Of a stretch of DNA of 64,000 nt, positions 15,925 through 27,861 are shown piece by piece (within the stretch, counting starts at the first letter, position 1; each line of letters opens with the position of its first letter). The notes beneath the pieces are model-generated. The model worked only from the letters and a program-made list of their open reading frames with translations, did no database searches and was not told the origin of the DNA. This stretch comes from Halogeometricum sp. S1BR25-6. Lineage in GTDB: Archaea; Halobacteriota; Halobacteria; Halobacteriales; Haloferacaceae. The stretch spans positions 434,001 through 498,000 of the forward strand of contig NZ_JAMQOP010000001.1 of the NCBI RefSeq assembly GCF_031624495.1. The letters are read 5' to 3'. Position numbers and translations under genes: made by a program.

Positions 15925-16572
15925 ATGAGCGCGTTTTTGGACTTCACCGTCCCTCGAGAGGCGTTCGTCCTCGGGCAGGTGCTGGACGTTGACCACGTCG
16001 GCTACATCGAACTCACCCAGTTCGTTCCCGTCGGCGAGTCGCTGGTCCCCTTCTTCTGGGCCGAGACGGACGACGCCGAGGCGTTCGAGGCGGCGGTCAC
16101 CGATTCCCCCCGCGTCGCCGACCTCGTCGGACTCGACGGCGTGACCGGACAGACGCTGTACCGGGTGCAGTGGGAGTCGGGCGTCGACGGTCTGCTCGAC
16201 GCCCTGCAGGCGCACGACATCGCGGTATTGCACGCCAGCACCCGCGACGGCGACTGGTGGTTCAAGACCGTCGCGGCGGACCGCGAGGTGTTCACGCGGT
16301 TTCAGGCCGCCTGTCACGAGAAGGGTCTGCCCATCGAGGTCCGCCGGCTCTCGAACGGTCGGACCCGCGAGCGTGCGCTGTACGGTCTCACCGAGAAACA
16401 GCGGGACGCGCTCTTGCTGGCCTACCGAGCCGGGTACTTCGAACCCGGAACGGACGTGCGGTTGGGGGACATCAGCGAACGACTCGAAATCAGCCAGCAG
16501 GCGCTCGGCGGACGACTCAAACGGGGGACGCACGCGCTCGTCCGCAACACCATCGCGTTCGGCGACGCGTGA
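15925..16572 (+). CDS. Bat-type HTH_10 transcriptional regulator lacking a sensor domain
   Basis: 215 residues. Residues about 5-150 form the domain that precedes the HTH in bacterio-opsin activators (LDFTVPREAFVLGQVL, IAVLHASTRDGDWWFKTVAA). Residues about 155-210 are the HTH_10 DNA-binding domain (LYGLTEKQRDALLLAYRAGY, ISERLEISQQALGGRLKRG). There is no PAS, LOV or receiver domain, so it is a minimal member of the family. It interrupts the ATP synthase genes between atpI and atpK and is on the same strand. Its ATG overlaps an upstream TGA (ATGA). It may regulate the atp or rhodopsin genes; this is untested. Confidence 0.85.
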   Translation: MSAFLDFTVPREAFVLGQVLDVDHVGYIELTQFVPVGESLVPFFWAETDDAEAFEAAVTDSPRVADLVGLDGVTGQTLYRVQWESGVDGLLDALQAHDIAVLHASTRDGDWWFKTVAADREVFTRFQAACHEKGLPIEVRRLSNGRTRERALYGLTEKQRDALLLAYRAGYFEPGTDVRLGDISERLEISQQALGGRLKRGTHALVRNTIAFGDA

Positions 16573-20799: not shown

Positions 20800-22227
20800 A
20801 TGAAAGAGTATCAAACGATATCCGAGATCAGCGGTCCGCTGGTGTTCGCCGAGGTCGACGAGCCGATCGGATACGACGAAATCGTCGAGATCGAGACGCC
20901 GGAGGGCGAGACCAAGCGCGGTCAGGTGCTCGAATCCTCCGAGGGCGTCGTCGCCATCCAAGTGTTCGAAGGCACCACCGGCATCGACAAGAACGCGTCT
21001 GTCCGGTTCCTGGGCGAGACGCTGAAGATGCCCGTCACCGAGGACCTCCTCGGACGGGTCCTCGACGGTTCCGGACAACCCATCGACGGCGGTCCGGAGA
21101 TCGTTCCCGACGAGCGACACGACATCGTCGGCGCGGCCATCAACCCCTACTCCCGCGAGTACCCCGAGGAGTTCATCCAGACCGGCGTCTCCGCCGTCGA
21201 CGGGATGAACACCCTCGTCCGCGGGCAGAAGCTCCCCATCTTCTCGGGGTCGGGGCTGCCGCACAACGACCTCGCGCTCCAGATCGCCCGTCAGGCGACC
21301 GTCCCCGAAGAGGCGGCCGAAGAGGGCGAGGACGCCTCGGAGTTCGCCGTCATCTTCGGCGCGATGGGCATCACGGCCGAGGAGGCCAACGAGTTCATGG
21401 ACGACTTCGAGCGCACCGGCGCGCTGGAACGCTCGGTCGTCTTCATGAACCTCGCGGACGACCCCGCCGTCGAGCGGACGGTCACGCCGCGGATGGCGCT
21501 GACGACCGCCGAGTACCTCGCGTTCGAGAAGGGCTACCACGTGCTGGTCATCCTCACGGACATGACCAACTACTGCGAGGCGCTGCGCGAAATCGGCGCC
21601 GCCCGCGAGGAGGTCCCGGGCCGCCGTGGCTACCCCGGATACATGTACACCGACCTGGCGCAACTGTACGAACGCGCCGGTCGTATCAAGGGCCGCGAGG
21701 GGTCGGTCACGCAGATTCCCATCCTCACGATGCCGGGGGACGACGACACCCACCCCATCCCGGACCTGACCGGCTACATCACCGAGGGACAGATCATGAT
21801 GGACCGCGACCTCAACAGTCAGGGCGTCCAGCCCCCGGTCAACGTGCTGCCGTCGCTCTCCCGACTCATGGACGACGGTATCGGCGAGGGCCTGACCCGC
21901 GCCGACCACGCCGACGTCTCCGACCAGATGTACGCGGCGTACGCGGAGGGTGAGGACCTGCGCGACCTCGTGAACATCGTCGGCCGCGAGGCGCTCTCGG
22001 AACGCGACAACAAGTACCTCGACTTCGCCGACCGCTTCGAGGACGAGTTCGTCGACCAGGGTTACGACACCAACCGCTCCATCGATGAGACCGTCGAAAT
22101 CGGCTGGGACCTCCTCTCGGAGTTCCCGAAACAGGAACTCAACCGCATCGACGAGGAGTTCATCGAGGAGCACTACCGAGAAGACGGGGCGGACGAAGAG
22201 ACCGAAGAAGAAGTCACCGCCGACTGA
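20800..22227 (+). CDS. atpB: A-type ATP synthase subunit B (non-catalytic)
   Basis: 475 residues. The nucleotide fold is present, but the P-loop position reads [20 protein letters not shown], the degenerate form typical of regulatory B subunits. MSRLMDD-type and [20 protein letters not shown] motifs confirm the family. It alternates with A in the hexamer. In haloarchaea atpD usually follows closely; here a 4.9-kb phototrophy cassette intervenes. Confidence 0.97.
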
Positions 22228-22328: not shown

Positions 22329-24314
22329 ATGCCGGACGAACGTCGCCCGCGACTTCTCGTCGCCGTACACGACGACGACCTGTTCGACCGAGTCGAGCGA
22401 TGCCTCCGGTCGACCTTCGACGGCGACTGCGGCATCGTCCGACGGCACGGGGACGTCGAGGCGGTCGACTTCGACTCGTTCGACTGCGTGGTCGTCGCCG
22501 ACGACCTGCCCGACACCGACCCCGAGGCCGTCACCGCCGCCGCCGGCGACGTTCCGGTCGTCGCACTTCTCAGCCCCGAGGGCGACCACTCGGCCGAGTC
22601 CGTCCTCGCGGCGGGCGCCGCAGACGTCGTCCCCGTCACCGACACGAACCTGTTCGACCGCCTCGGCCGTCGGACCGCGAGCGTCCTCGCGTGGCGAAGC
22701 GACTACGCCACGGCGGAGCGACGAGTGACCGAGGACCTCAAGGAACGGGCGATGGACGAGGCGCCCGTCGGTATCACCATCGCGGACGCTTCGCTCCCCG
22801 ACGACCCTCTCGTCTACGTCAACGACGCGTTCGAGTCGCTGACCGGGTACGACGAGTCGGAGGCGCTGGGACGCAACTGTCGGTACCTGCAGGGTCCCGG
22901 AACGGACCCCGAACCGGTCGCCGAACTCCGCCGCGCGGTCCGCGCCGAGGGGAGCGCGTCGGTCGAACTGCTGAACTACCGGCGCGACGGCGAGACGTTC
23001 TGGAACCGCGTCGACATCGCGCCCATTCACGGCCCCGAGGGTGACCTGAGCCACTACGTGGGGTTTCAGACCGACGTTACCGACCGGGTCCGGGCCGAAC
23101 GGGCGGCCGAACACTACGCTTCGGTCGCCGACAGGGAACGCACGCGTCTCCGGGGACTCGTCGACCAGGTCGAAAACCTCCTCGTCGACGTGACGGAGGT
23201 TCTCGTGCGCGCGGAAACGCGCGCGGAACTCGAACGCGAGGTGTGCGAACGGGTCGCGGACTCGCCCTCGTACGCCTGCGCGTGGGTCGGGGACTGCGAC
23301 CTCTCGCCGGACGCCATAGTGCCGAAAGAGTGGGCGGGAGAGGCCACCACCGCGGTCGTCGGACTCCGGATCGACCGGCGGGCGGTCGACGACCCCGTCG
23401 CCCGCGCGGTTGCGACCCGGTCCGTCCAGACGATGTCGGACCCCGACGGCCGGTTTCACCCCGGCGTCGTCCTTCCGTTCGGGAGCGTCGTCGCCGTACC
23501 CTTGGTGCATTCCGAGACGCTGTACGGCGTGCTCACGGTGTACCGCGAGGGCGACGCTCCCGGCGAACCCGAACGGGTGGCGTTGGAAGCACTCGGAAGC
23601 GCCGTCGCCGCCGCCATCGACGCGTTCGAGAGTCGCCGGACGCTCGTCACCGACAGTCGCCTCGAACTCCGGATTCGAATCTCGGACGCGAACACCCCGC
23701 TGGCTCGTCTCGCACTGGCGAACGAGTGTTCGCTGCGGTACCGGGGCTCCGTCGCCCGCGACGACGGGACGGTGCTGCTCTTCGTCTCGTCGACGCCGGC
23801 CGACGCCGAACTCGTCGCCGTCGACGTTCCCGGCGTTCAGCGGGTTGTTCGCCTCAAACGCGGCGGCGGCGACACCCTCGACGAGATTCACCTCGGCTCG
23901 GGGTCGCTGCTGTCGCTGGCCGCCGAACGCGGCGCCCGCCTGACCGACCTCTCGGTCACCGAGGACGGAACGGTCGAACTCCTCGTGACCGTCACCGACC
24001 GGTCGGCGGGGCGGACGCTCCTCGACGAACTGTCGGCCGTCGCCACCGGCGTCAGACTGGACGCGATTCGGGAACGCGCGGGGCCGGCGTCGACGCCGCG
24101 GGAGTTCGTCTCGACCGTCGAGAACGAACTGACGGACCGACAGCGGACGGCCCTCCAACTGGCTCACCTCGGCGGGTTCTTCGAGTGGCCGCACGGCGTC
24201 TCGGGCGACGAACTTGCGGCGGCAATGGACATCTCCCGGTCGACGTTCCACCAGCACCTCCGAGCGGCCGAGCGGAAACTCGTCGCCGCATTTTACCGGG
24301 AAATGCCCAACTAG
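22329..24314 (+). CDS. bat: Bat-type bacterio-opsin activator with LOV, GAF and HTH_10 domains
   Basis: 661 residues. Residues 8-120: receiver-like domain without a clear phospho-acceptor pocket. Residues about 139-253: LOV domain with GRNCRYLQG (adduct Cys184), LLNYRRDG (Asn216), FWN (Asn226) and GFQTDVT (Gln247). These offsets (+32, +42, +63 from the Cys) equal those of oat phototropin LOV2 (C450, N482, N492, Q513, from memory). Residues about 275-430: coiled coil and GAF. Residues about 435-585: Bat domain. Residues about 595-650: HTH_10 (LTDRQRTALQLAHLGGFFEW; ISRSTFHQHLRAAERKL). It probably activates bop in response to light or redox state. Its stop codon overlaps the palindrome upstream of bop. 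Confidence 0.92.
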   Translation: MPDERRPRLLVAVHDDDLFDRVERCLRSTFDGDCGIVRRHGDVEAVDFDSFDCVVVADDLPDTDPEAVTAAAGDVPVVALLSPEGDHSAESVLAAGAADVVPVTDTNLFDRLGRRTASVLAWRSDYATAERRVTEDLKERAMDEAPVGITIADASLPDDPLVYVNDAFESLTGYDESEALGRNCRYLQGPGTDPEPVAELRRAVRAEGSASVELLNYRRDGETFWNRVDIAPIHGPEGDLSHYVGFQTDVTDRVRAERAAEHYASVADRERTRLRGLVDQVENLLVDVTEVLVRAETRAELEREVCERVADSPSYACAWVGDCDLSPDAIVPKEWAGEATTAVVGLRIDRRAVDDPVARAVATRSVQTMSDPDGRFHPGVVLPFGSVVAVPLVHSETLYGVLTVYREGDAPGEPERVALEALGSAVAAAIDAFESRRTLVTDSRLELRIRISDANTPLARLALANECSLRYRGSVARDDGTVLLFVSSTPADAELVAVDVPGVQRVVRLKRGGGDTLDEIHLGSGSLLSLAAERGARLTDLSVTEDGTVELLVTVTDRSAGRTLLDELSAVATGVRLDAIRERAGPASTPREFVSTVENELTDRQRTALQLAHLGGFFEWPHGVSGDELAAAMDISRSTFHQHLRAAERKLVAAFYREMPN

Positions 24315-24319
24315 TTGGG
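24306..24319. promoter_or_regulatory. Bat upstream activating sequence (palindrome CCCAACTAGTTGGG)
   Basis: A perfect 14-bp palindrome covers the last two sense codons and the stop of bat and ends 42 bases before the bop ATG. As I recall it, the consensus for the Bat UAS in Halobacterium is ACCcnactagTTnGG; this site matches all positions except the first A. No strong TATA box follows, as expected for an activator-dependent promoter. Confidence 0.75.
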
Positions 24320-24361
24320 TACACCCGACTTGTCCGCAGACGCCCCAGTAACGGATGTAGT

Positions 24362-25096
24362 ATGGCAACACCAGGCAGCGAAGCGATATGGCTGTGGATA
24401 GGCACGGCGGGGATGTTCGCGGGGACGATGTACTTCGTCGCCCGCGGGTGGGGCGTCACCGACCCGAAACAACAGTTGTTCTACGTCCTGAGCATCTTCG
24501 TGACCACCATCGCGTCCGTCTCGTACCTGATGATGGCCACGGGGTTCGGCCTGACGCAGGTCGAGGTGGGCGGCGTGATGTTGGATATCTACTGGGCGCG
24601 GTACGCCGACTGGATATTCACGACGCCGTTGCTGTTGCTCGACCTCGCGCTGTTGGCGGGGGCGAACCGTAACACGATGTACACGCTCGTGGGCCTCGAC
24701 GTGCTCATGATCGCGACCGGAGCCATCGCGGCGTTCGCCGCGTCGGCACCCGTCCGCATCGCGTGGTGGGGGGTCAGCACCGTTCTGCTGCTGTTCCTCC
24801 TGTACTTCCTCGTTCAGGCGCTGAACGAGGCGGCCGACCGGCAGACCGAGTCGGTCCGCAGTCTGACCACCAGGTTGCGCAACATGCTCATCGTGCTGTG
24901 GTTGGCCTACCCGGTCGTCTGGATACTGGGGACCGAGGGGACCATCGGCCTCCTCCCCCTGTACTACGAGACGGCCGCGTTCATGGTGCTGGACCTCGTG
25001 GCGAAGGTCGGGTTCGGCTTCATCCTCCTGCGAAGCCACAGCGTGCTCGACCAAGTCGGACAGCGGAATCCCGCCGCGACCCCTGCGGACGACTGA
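24362..25096 (+). CDS. bop: Bacteriorhodopsin-type light-driven proton pump
   Basis: 244 residues, seven TM helices. Helix C reads YWARYADWIFTTPLLLLDLA: R80, D83 (proton acceptor, BR D85), T87 (BR T89), D94 (proton donor, BR D96). Helix G has the retinal lysine K215 in DLVAKVGFG and the counterion D211. The release pair E192 and E203 is present with one extra residue in the F-G loop relative to Halobacterium BR. L91, M116 and G120 match the BR pocket, suggesting green absorption. The full D-T-D set argues for outward H+ pumping, not a sensory or chloride rhodopsin. There is no transducer gene nearby. Confidence 0.96.
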   Translation: MATPGSEAIWLWIGTAGMFAGTMYFVARGWGVTDPKQQLFYVLSIFVTTIASVSYLMMATGFGLTQVEVGGVMLDIYWARYADWIFTTPLLLLDLALLAGANRNTMYTLVGLDVLMIATGAIAAFAASAPVRIAWWGVSTVLLLFLLYFLVQALNEAADRQTESVRSLTTRLRNMLIVLWLAYPVVWILGTEGTIGLLPLYYETAAFMVLDLVAKVGFGFILLRSHSVLDQVGQRNPAATPADD

Positions 25097-25201: not shown

Positions 25202-26056
25202 GTGACGGCGAGACTCACGTACCTCGGCTTCCACGCCGTGTTCGTTCTCCCACCGCTCGCGGTCCTCGGACTCGTCGTCTACCGCCGCCGCGACCGAATC
25301 GCCGCCCGCGACTGGCGGGTCCGAGCGGTCGGCGCGGCCGTCCTCGCCGCCATCGCCCTCGTCTACACGACGCCGTGGGACAACTACCTCATCGCCCGCG
25401 GCGTCTGGTGGTACGGCGAGGGGACCGTCGCGGCGACGCTGTGGCGCGCGCCCGTCGAGGAGTACCTGTTCTTCGTCCTCCAACCCGTCGTCGTCGCCCT
25501 CTGGCTGTACGCCCTCCCGGCACCCGCTGGTTCCGTGGCGACGGACGGGAGAGCGGCGACGAACGGAGAAACCGTGACGGACGGGGGAGCGACGACTGCG
25601 GACGAGTCGGCGCGGGGCGGGACGCCGGCGACGACCCGGAGGTCGGCGACGACGGTCGGCGTGACGGTCCGCGACCGACTCCTCGGCGTCGCCGCCGGTC
25701 TCGCCGTCGGCGTCGTCGGCGTCGCCTGCCTCCTCGCCGGCGACGGGACGTACTACCTCGGCGCCATCCTCGCGTGGGCGGCCCCCGTGTTCGCCCTCCA
25801 GTGGGGGTTCGGGTGGCCGTATCTGTGGCGGGTCCGGCGGACGCTCGCGGCGGCCGTCGGAGTCCCGACGCTGTACTTCTGGGTCGCCGACGCGGCGGCG
25901 CTCGGACTCGGCGTTTGGCACATCTCGCCGGCGCACACCGTCGGTCTCGCCGTCGCCGGCCTTCCCCTCGAAGAGGCGACGTTCTTCCTCGTGACGAACC
26001 TGTTCGTCGTGCAGGGGCTGCTCCTGTTCCTGTGGGTGGTGGCGCGGTGGCGGTGA
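25202..26056 (+). CDS. crtY: Lycopene beta-cyclase (CarR/CrtY membrane type)
   Basis: 284 residues, GTG start with GGAGG five bases upstream. Two homologous membrane halves are present. The first has TTPWDNYLIARGVWWYG (about 56-72) and APVEEYLFFVLQP (about 83-95); the second has AGLPLEEATFFLVTN near residue 252. The PWDNY and PxEE motifs are the signature of archaeal, actinobacterial and fungal heterodimer-derived lycopene cyclases. An Ala/Thr/Asp/Gly-rich linker (about 108-155) joins the halves. The product converts lycopene to beta-carotene, the retinal precursor. Its end overlaps blh (GTGA). Confidence 0.9.
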   Translation: MTARLTYLGFHAVFVLPPLAVLGLVVYRRRDRIAARDWRVRAVGAAVLAAIALVYTTPWDNYLIARGVWWYGEGTVAATLWRAPVEEYLFFVLQPVVVALWLYALPAPAGSVATDGRAATNGETVTDGGATTADESARGGTPATTRRSATTVGVTVRDRLLGVAAGLAVGVVGVACLLAGDGTYYLGAILAWAAPVFALQWGFGWPYLWRVRRTLAAAVGVPTLYFWVADAAALGLGVWHISPAHTVGLAVAGLPLEEATFFLVTNLFVVQGLLLFLWVVARWR

Positions 26057-27081
26057 CGACGTCCATCGCCGGCCCGGTCCGCCGGCGTCTCGCCCGTACC
26101 GTGTTTCCCCTCCCGTGGGCCGCCCTCGCCGCCGCAATCGTCGCGTCGCTGCTCGGCTTCGCCCTCGACGGCCCGGCGCGGTACGCGCCGCTGCTGCTCT
26201 CGGTCGTCGTGCTCGGACTGCCGCACGGGGCGCTCGACCACCTGACGCTCCCGCGCGCCCGCGGCGCGCGCCCGACCTCCCGCTCGCTCGCCGCGGTCGG
26301 CGCGCTGTATCTCGTCCTCGGCGGCCTCTACGCCGCGGGGTGGTTCCTCGCTCCCGCGGCCGCCTTCGTCGCCTTTCTCGCGCTCACGTGGGTCCACTGG
26401 GGGCAGGGCGACGTCTACTCGCTCGTCGCCCTCTCCCGGGAGACGCACCTGCGAACGCGCGGGCAGCGTCTCCTCGCGGCCGCCGTCCGCGGCGGGATTC
26501 CGATGGTGGTCCCCCTCGTCGGCTTCCCCGAAACGTACCGGGCCGTCGCGGCGACGACGGCGGGACTGTTCGTCTCGGGGGCGTCGTTCGCGTGGCTTCT
26601 CGCCCCGTCGGTTCGCCTCGTCGCCGGGGGAGCGGTAGCGCTTCTGACCGTCGCCTCGCTGTTGCTCGGCCGCGCGCGCGCCGACGACTCCGCGTCGCGC
26701 GACGCGTGGCGACTCGACGCCGGCGAGTCGCTCCTGCTGTGGGCGTTCTTCCTCGCGGTTCCGCCGCTCGTCGCCATCGGACTCTACTTCGCGCTGTGGC
26801 ACTCGCTGCGACATCTGGCGCGACTCGCGGCCCTCGACCCGTCGCTCTCGCCCGCCCTCCGCCGCGGACGCCCGCTCTCCGTGGTCGTCGGCCTCGGTCG
26901 CGACGCCCTCCCGCTGACTCTCGGGGCGGTGATACTTCTGGCCGGCCTCGCGGCGGCCGTGCCGGCGGGCGTCGGGAGCGTCGACGCCGTCGCGTCCGTC
27001 TCCCTCGTCCTTCTCGCCGTGCTCACCCTCCCGCACGTCGTCGTCGTCTCCTGTCTGGACCGGGTGCAGGGGCTCTGGTGA
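26053..27081 (+). CDS. blh: Brp/Blh family beta-carotene 15,15'-dioxygenase
   Basis: 342 residues, mostly membrane helices. Probable iron-binding histidines are H58 (GLPHGALDH), H115 (LTWVHWGQGD), H250 and H254 (LWHSLRHLARL). Their spacing (57 between the first two, 4 between the last two) equals that of marine Blh (H21, H78, H188, H192 as I recall). The enzyme splits beta-carotene into two retinals for the opsin. The GTG start overlaps the crtY stop by 4 bases, so the two are co-translated. A GTG two codons earlier is an alternative. Confidence 0.92.
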   Translation: MTTSIAGPVRRRLARTVFPLPWAALAAAIVASLLGFALDGPARYAPLLLSVVVLGLPHGALDHLTLPRARGARPTSRSLAAVGALYLVLGGLYAAGWFLAPAAAFVAFLALTWVHWGQGDVYSLVALSRETHLRTRGQRLLAAAVRGGIPMVVPLVGFPETYRAVAATTAGLFVSGASFAWLLAPSVRLVAGGAVALLTVASLLLGRARADDSASRDAWRLDAGESLLLWAFFLAVPPLVAIGLYFALWHSLRHLARLAALDPSLSPALRRGRPLSVVVGLGRDALPLTLGAVILLAGLAAAVPAGVGSVDAVASVSLVLLAVLTLPHVVVVSCLDRVQGLW

Positions 27082-27162: not shown

Positions 27163-27861
27163 ATGGCCGAAGACGTCAAACCGACTCGCAAGAACCTGAT
27201 GGCGATCGAGGACCGCATCGAACTCTCCGAGCGGGGCCACGACACGCTCGAACAGAAGCGAGACGGTCTCATCATGGAGTTCATGGACATCCTGGACCAG
27301 GCGCAGGACGTCCGTTCGGAACTCAACGGCAACTACGAGACGGCCCAATCGAAGATCAACATGGCCCGCGCGATGGAGGGCGACGTGGCCGTCCGCGGCG
27401 CCGCCGCGGCGCTGAAAGAGCACCCCGAGATCACGACGCAGTCGAAGAACATCATGGGCGTCGTCGTCCCGCAGATAGAATCTTCGCGTGTGAAGAAGTC
27501 GCTCGACCAGCGCGGGTACGGCCTGCTCGGTTCCTCGGCCCGCATCGACGAGGCGGCCGACGCCTACGAGGACCTCCTCGAATCCATCATCCTCGCCGCC
27601 GAGGTGGAGACGGCGATGAAGAAGATGCTCAAGGAGATAGAGACGACGAAGCGCCGCGTCAACGCCCTGGAGTTCAAACTCCTGCCCGACCTCTACGAGA
27701 ACAAGGAGTACATCGAGCAGAAACTCGAAGAGCAGGAGCGCGAGGAGATATTCCGCCTGAAGAAGATCAAGGCGAAGAAGGAAGAAGAGGAGAAGGCCGA
27801 ACGCGAGGAAGCCGAACAGAACGAGACGTCCGTCGCCGAGAGCGTCCCCGCGGACGACTGA
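27163..27861 (+). CDS. atpD: A-type ATP synthase subunit D
   Basis: 232 residues: long N- and C-terminal helices forming the rotor shaft ([40 protein letters not shown]) with a Glu/Lys-rich C-terminus. The NALEF-LLP motif is diagnostic for subunit D. It lies 81 bases after blh and 4.9 kb from atpB, yet on the same strand. It may use its own weak promoter (GGATTAACC near 27131). Confidence 0.96.

Follow-up and report, generated by a model that had tools for sequence, protein, structure and literature searches.

A cysteine-bearing LOV domain in the Bat regulator encoded beside bop within the ATP synthase operon of Halogeometricum sp. S1BR25-6, and its plausible role in light control of the opsin gene

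Does the regulator encoded immediately upstream of a light-driven proton pump sense light itself? Direct light sensing by Bat was "not definitively established" as of 2015 (PMC4682037), and the question is raised by a locus of Halogeometricum sp. S1BR25-6 that lies in a stretch of 64,000 nucleotides (contig NZ_JAMQOP010000001.1, positions 434,001 to 498,000; hereafter the window, to which coordinates refer unless a locus is named). The genes follow each other on the forward strand in the order atpB, bat, bop, crtY-type cyclase, brp/blh, and atpD. The A-type ATP synthase genes for subunit B (atpB, 20800-22227, assigned by Pfam) and subunit D (atpD, 27163-27861; PF01813, E 3e-58) form the upstream and downstream edges of an inserted cassette, which consists of bat (22329-24314), the opsin gene bop (24362-25096, 244 aa; PF01036, E 4e-64), a crtY-type lycopene cyclase gene (25202-26056; TIGR03462, E 6e-42), and a brp/blh gene for a beta-carotene 15,15'-dioxygenase (26053-27081; TIGR03753, E 1e-69). 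Just 47 bp separate the bat stop codon from the start of bop. The opsin carries the proton-pump residues D83, D94, D211, and K215, equivalent to D85, D96, D212, and K216 of bR, and its best PDB match is deltarhodopsin (4fbz, E 7.6e-96), so that bat is linked to a proton-pumping opsin. Further downstream, the GTG start codon of brp overlaps the crtY stop codon in the sequence GTGA (26053-26056), which suggests translational coupling of the two genes.

Bat is a predicted transcription regulator of 661 amino acids. Its first 125 residues (22329-22703) adopt a receiver-like alpha/beta fold according to the secondary structure of the model, and stayed unmatched in Pfam with the threshold relaxed to E<=1. 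The LOV (PAS) domain at residues 135-250 (22731-23078) was recognized by PAS_9 (residues 147-252, E 2.7e-20), by LOV structures, and by the NCBIfam YtvA blue-light family (residues 138-266, E 8e-43, a match under that family's full-length cut-off). In the model, a long helix of residues 251-294 (23079-23210) leads from LOV to GAF in the position of a Jalpha or signal helix. C-terminal to the PAS region follow a GAF domain (residues 296-431, 23214-23621; GAF_2, E 3.4e-9), a BAT domain (residues 442-594, 23652-24110; PF15915, E 7e-24), and the DNA-binding domain HTH_10 (residues 601-652, 24129-24284; PF04967, E 1.7e-19), all above Pfam cut-offs. The original prediction had placed LOV, GAF, and HTH_10 in one chain; Pfam bears this out, and the receiver-like N-terminus and the BAT domain can now be added. 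The AlphaFold model, computed with 19 homologues, has a mean pLDDT of 81 but a pTM of 0.37, so the single domains are reliable and their mutual placement is not. A second, small protein with HTH_10 and BAT domains is encoded at 15925-16572 on the same strand, upstream of the ATP synthase genes.

The motif GRNCRYLQG begins at residue 181 and matches NCR(F/Y/L)LQ including the cysteine, Cys184 (22878-22880), which is predicted to form the flavin adduct. We aligned the domain with LOV2 of oat phototropin (AsLOV2), using a reference sequence that agrees in full with PDB chain 2v1a, and found 42% identity with zero gaps between the motif and the conserved glutamine. Asn216 (22974-22976), Asn226 (23004-23006), and Gln247 (23067-23069), the last being the expected glutamine switch, correspond to N482, N492, and Q513 of AsLOV2 and follow Cys184 at +32, +42, and +63, just as their counterparts follow C450. 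The ORF translation and the gap-free alignment thus show these offsets, which the original prediction had read by eye, to be exact. A phmmer search of the PDB returned 155 sequences at E<=1e-5 (best 9.7e-38) with LOV photoreceptors at the top, and the closest solved relatives are the Meiothermus LOV histidine kinase, Chlamydomonas phototropin, Brucella LOV-HK, aureochromes, and YtvA. The LOV part of the model superimposes closely on 9vf8 (105 residues, 0.6 A) and on 8qih (107 residues, 1.1 A). Together, the PDB matches, the AsLOV2 alignment, and the superposition rule out a chance likeness. Fold comparison gave Z of about 20 against LOV structures, although some non-LOV PAS domains have this fold as well and the PAS domain of an EAG channel (4hoi) comes close at Z 19.9. 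For this reason we base the LOV claim on the residues and not only on the fold. A LOV-like but ordinary PAS domain that binds no flavin would produce such a near tie in fold comparison, yet it would hardly carry the full NCRxLQ/N/N/Q set at exact spacing, conserved in distant relatives, and we consider this reading extremely unlikely. The sequence, its conservation across haloarchaea, and structure prediction agree that the domain is a bona fide LOV domain as first proposed, and at the level of sequence this identity is nearly certain.

The further proposal that all flavin contacts are conserved holds for every signature residue but not for the whole pocket: among 23 positions that we take to be the flavin pocket of AsLOV2, 12 are identical in Bat, 6 are conservatively replaced, and 5 differ (V416T, T418A, N425D, T484R, and F494V, from AsLOV2 to Bat). 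Tyr243, a phenylalanine in AsLOV2, is near the flavin and could quench it. The Bat domain is the sole LOV-like match in this genome, so any LOV-based light response of the organism would be carried by Bat. By likeness to ALovD-1 from Lake Diamante, a canonical archaeal LOV domain with cysteine that photocycles at high salt, up to 3 M (Valle 2025, PMC12202551), Bat LOV is very likely photochemically competent. ALovD-1 differs in that it is not described as Bat, and most Diamante LOV domains are parts of kinases.

A candidate target of the regulator lies directly before the opsin gene. The predicted activator site CCAACTAGTTGGGTA, with the 12-bp palindrome CCAACTAGTTGG, occupies 24307-24321 on the forward strand, some 53 bp upstream of the ATG of bop, and overlaps the bat stop codon. 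Allowing up to two mismatches, we found the motif AACTAGTTnGGTA before bop in 38 of 47 Bat-linked loci, mostly 48-56 bp ahead of the start. The same threshold was reached by 4 of 940 shuffled sequences and by 6 of 34 opsins without Bat nearby, which rules out general promoter noise. Across the genome (4.5 Mb) there is a single perfect match, and it is the one before bop. The conserved motif lends indirect support to the original proposal that Bat would control the opsin gene directly. In a Halobacterium-type locus (we assign this label, like Halorubrum-type below, by kinship, group codes, and the layout of the locus), ACTGATTGGGT stands equally far ahead of bop. We take ACTGATTGGGT to be the experimentally defined UAS of bop, and the motif presumably equals the UAS published in 1999. 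The recognition helices of HTH_10 differ among Bat clades, which fits different variants of the site but does not prove that Bat binds them; the motif may belong to another regulator.

On balance we think it probable that Bat is a flavin-binding blue-light receptor and a transcription factor in one chain that acts at 24307-24321 on bop. We infer that the domain binds flavin and that blue light would lead to a covalent bond between flavin and Cys184. The ensuing change at Gln247 and in the beta-sheet would pass through the helix of residues 251-294 to GAF, BAT, and HTH_10, and the altered action of Bat, probably as a dimer, would be felt at the palindromic site. We also infer that Bat binds there, that bop is its target, and that the response is an increase: transcription of bop-crtY-brp would rise, and the pump, the retinal-making enzymes, and the surrounding ATP synthase would be made together in the light. 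The GAF domain may add a second signal, either redox or ligand. Light control of bop by Bat is plausible. In outline such a protein would resemble EL222, a bacterial LOV-HTH protein and one-component blue-light transcription factor, to whose family we do not assign Bat; EL222 has an HTH of a different family and is not known to have GAF or BAT domains.

The cysteine can be followed through regions around opsins and Bats that we sampled from many haloarchaeal genera. A Cys-type Bat and this opsin were the seeds of the sampling, so the counts should not be read as unbiased frequencies. An opsin lies no more than 4.5 kb away from 53 Bats, of which 47 have Cys, 3 His, and 3 Pro; Cys is present in 39/39 Bats whose opsin is within 300 bp, in 33/33 inside ATP synthase operons, and in 74/87 Bats overall, among which N183, Q188, N216, and Q247 are invariant. 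The Cys-bearing LOV domain is the usual form of Bat in the haloarchaea sampled, and the models that have been studied come from Cys-less lineages. On an unrooted tree of the 87 Bat cores, two changes at the Cys position suffice. The His clade joins two Halobacterium-type genomes, whose Bats (L162 and L179) have His at this position, with three others, and the Pro clade joins Halorubrum-type genomes with one other. In a tree of LOV domains rooted on non-archaeal sequences, in which support is weak and AsLOV2 is misplaced as a long branch, both Cys-less groups nest inside the Cys Bats. A further residue, Arg201 (22929-22931), corresponds to the flavin phosphate contact R467 of AsLOV2. Neither of the Cys-less clades has it, nor do 9 of the Cys-type Bats, but its covariation with Cys is not significant, since the tree shows 9 changes of Arg201 and just 2 of the pairs are independent.

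The loci of the Cys-less clades differ from the one studied here. The Halobacterium-type locus shares the PAS-GAF-BAT-HTH_10 order known from Halobacterium salinarum Bat (Tarasov 2008, 2011), whose regulon Baliga is said to have described in 2001, the linkage to bop, and the distance of the motif. Unlike Bat of S1BR25-6, it has His for Cys, bat and bop lie away from the ATP synthase operon, and a brz-like gene stands between brp and bop. Between atpB and atpD, both His-type Halobacterium-type genomes have crtY and brp but neither bat nor bop; these remnants were located at L218:6817-8549 and L219:1269-2980. L157, which belongs to the same genus group, has a full Cys-type cassette in its ATP synthase operon. 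In the Pro-type Halorubrum genomes L216 and L217 the gap between atpB and atpD measures about 175-215 bp and the cassette is absent. BAT-LOV* of Halorubrum hochstenium (Yee 2015, PMC4682037) combines receiver, LOV, GAF, and HTH in one chain as Bat does here, but has Pro instead of Cys, and the reactive cysteine is also absent from H. salinarum Bat according to Losi 2014 (PMC4844311). These two proteins correspond to the two Cys-less clades. As a tentative reconstruction, which may well be right although it falls short of being probable, the ancestral regulator was a Cys-LOV blue-light receptor whose gene shared the ATP synthase operon with bop, crtY, and brp. Cys would then have been lost in two independent events, once to His and once to Pro, when bat moved out of the operon, and light sensing would have relaxed towards redox sensing. 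If true, this would reverse the redox-first hypothesis of Yee 2015, and Haloferax would have kept the receptor without the pump.

The same pocket could also serve as a redox or oxygen sensor, a role already proposed for Cys-less Bats: LOV would bind flavin, the signal would be its reduction at low oxygen, and the light effect of Cys184 would be incidental or would tune the redox potential. Such a role fits the induction of bop by low oxygen as well as light in H. salinarum (PMC3184054), the Cys-less BAT-LOV* of H. hochstenium, which binds flavin, responds to chemical reduction, and changes shape when reduced (PMC4682037), and the retention of the same Asn/Gln pocket in Cys-less Bats. However, Cys persists in 74 of 87 Bats though neighbouring motif positions vary, strict retention of Cys is what adduct chemistry predicts, and the absence of Cys from two clades looks like a derived loss in each. 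We regard such a redox-sensing Bat as unlikely.

Even a working blue-light receptor might be directed mainly at other genes or at the ATP synthase operon, with its place beside bop being inherited synteny. Seven Haloferax loci (L020, L021, L022, L023, L024, L025, and L046) hold a Cys-type Bat between atpB and atpD and lack bop, crtY, and brp there, so Bat must have other targets in these genomes. Conversely, L145 and L146 carry bop at this position but have no bat there, and BRI of H. marismortui is described as constitutive (Verma 2020, PMC7755889). Against this stand the conserved promoter motif, which tracks linkage to Bat, and its sole perfect genomic match upstream of bop. Action of the orphan Haloferax Bat on atpD through the bop motif was also considered and rejected, as the motif is absent between bat and atpD. 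A main target other than bop thus seems quite improbable to us. Still less probable, in our estimation, is that the adduct lowers the activity of Bat, limiting pump synthesis or photodamage, or that Bat alone is unresponsive and needs partners. LOV outputs of either sign are known, as in YF1 and its H22P inverter (PMC4682037), and light induction of bop in H. salinarum required Brz and Brb besides Bat (PMC3184054). Yet in that organism light induces bop, though via a Cys-less Bat, and we found no convincing Brz homologue in this genome (best match E 0.09, the 61-residue query being weak), so the circuit may differ from that of H. salinarum, in which Bat may activate bop indirectly, via Brz (PMC2253796). 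For the receptor acting directly on bop, which we prefer, the need for Brz and Brb in H. salinarum, the lack of a difference between light and dark for Haloquadratum bop (PMC5496347), and the Haloferax Bats without bop count against a simple form of control.

Parts of this picture have been described separately. Both LOV-containing Bat-like proteins and bat-bop at the ATP synthase position are already known. A LOV-type Bat as such would not be new: Losi 2014 (PMC4844311) already presents archaeal LOV-HTH proteins of Bat architecture, with Cys LOV in Halobacteria in (RR/GAF/PAS)+LOV+nPAS+kGAF+HTH arrangements, one of them Bat-like. Unlike the present analysis, its accessible text does not discuss linkage to bop, nor does it treat a promoter site or the split of Cys-less Bats into two clades. 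Verma 2020 (PMC7755889) reports the same gene position, with bop, often together with bat, crtY, and blh, between ATP synthase subunits B and D, and includes a bat-only strain; the insertion is called probably random, and the LOV domain and promoter motif are not analysed in the accessible part of that paper. Cys in most opsin-adjacent Bats, two nested Cys-less clades, and a conserved site before bop that occurs in step with Bat linkage seem to be unreported in the searchable literature, most subscription papers lying outside it. The bench-studied Bats found in the accessible literature are Cys-less, and Cys-bearing, opsin-adjacent Bats with a predicted DNA target are common in our sample. If a flavin receptor does place a light-driven pump under light control here, Bat would offer a one-component optogenetic switch of natural archaeal origin that suits high salt.

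Motifs related to the bop site also occur elsewhere. In Haloferax, the palindrome TACCTTACTAGTTAGGTA, which resembles the bop motif, was found at L020:17081-17098, at L022:16720-16737, and at equivalent positions, about 6.4 kb downstream and past the ATP synthase operon. There it precedes a small gene of about 50 codons for a zinc-finger-like CxxC...CPSC protein, so the motif may not be specific to Bat, and a regulator shared by the bop motif and TACCTTACTAGTTAGGTA is possible. Before the bop genes of L145 and L146, which lie between atpB and atpD without bat, the motif has 5 mismatches in one and 2 in the other.
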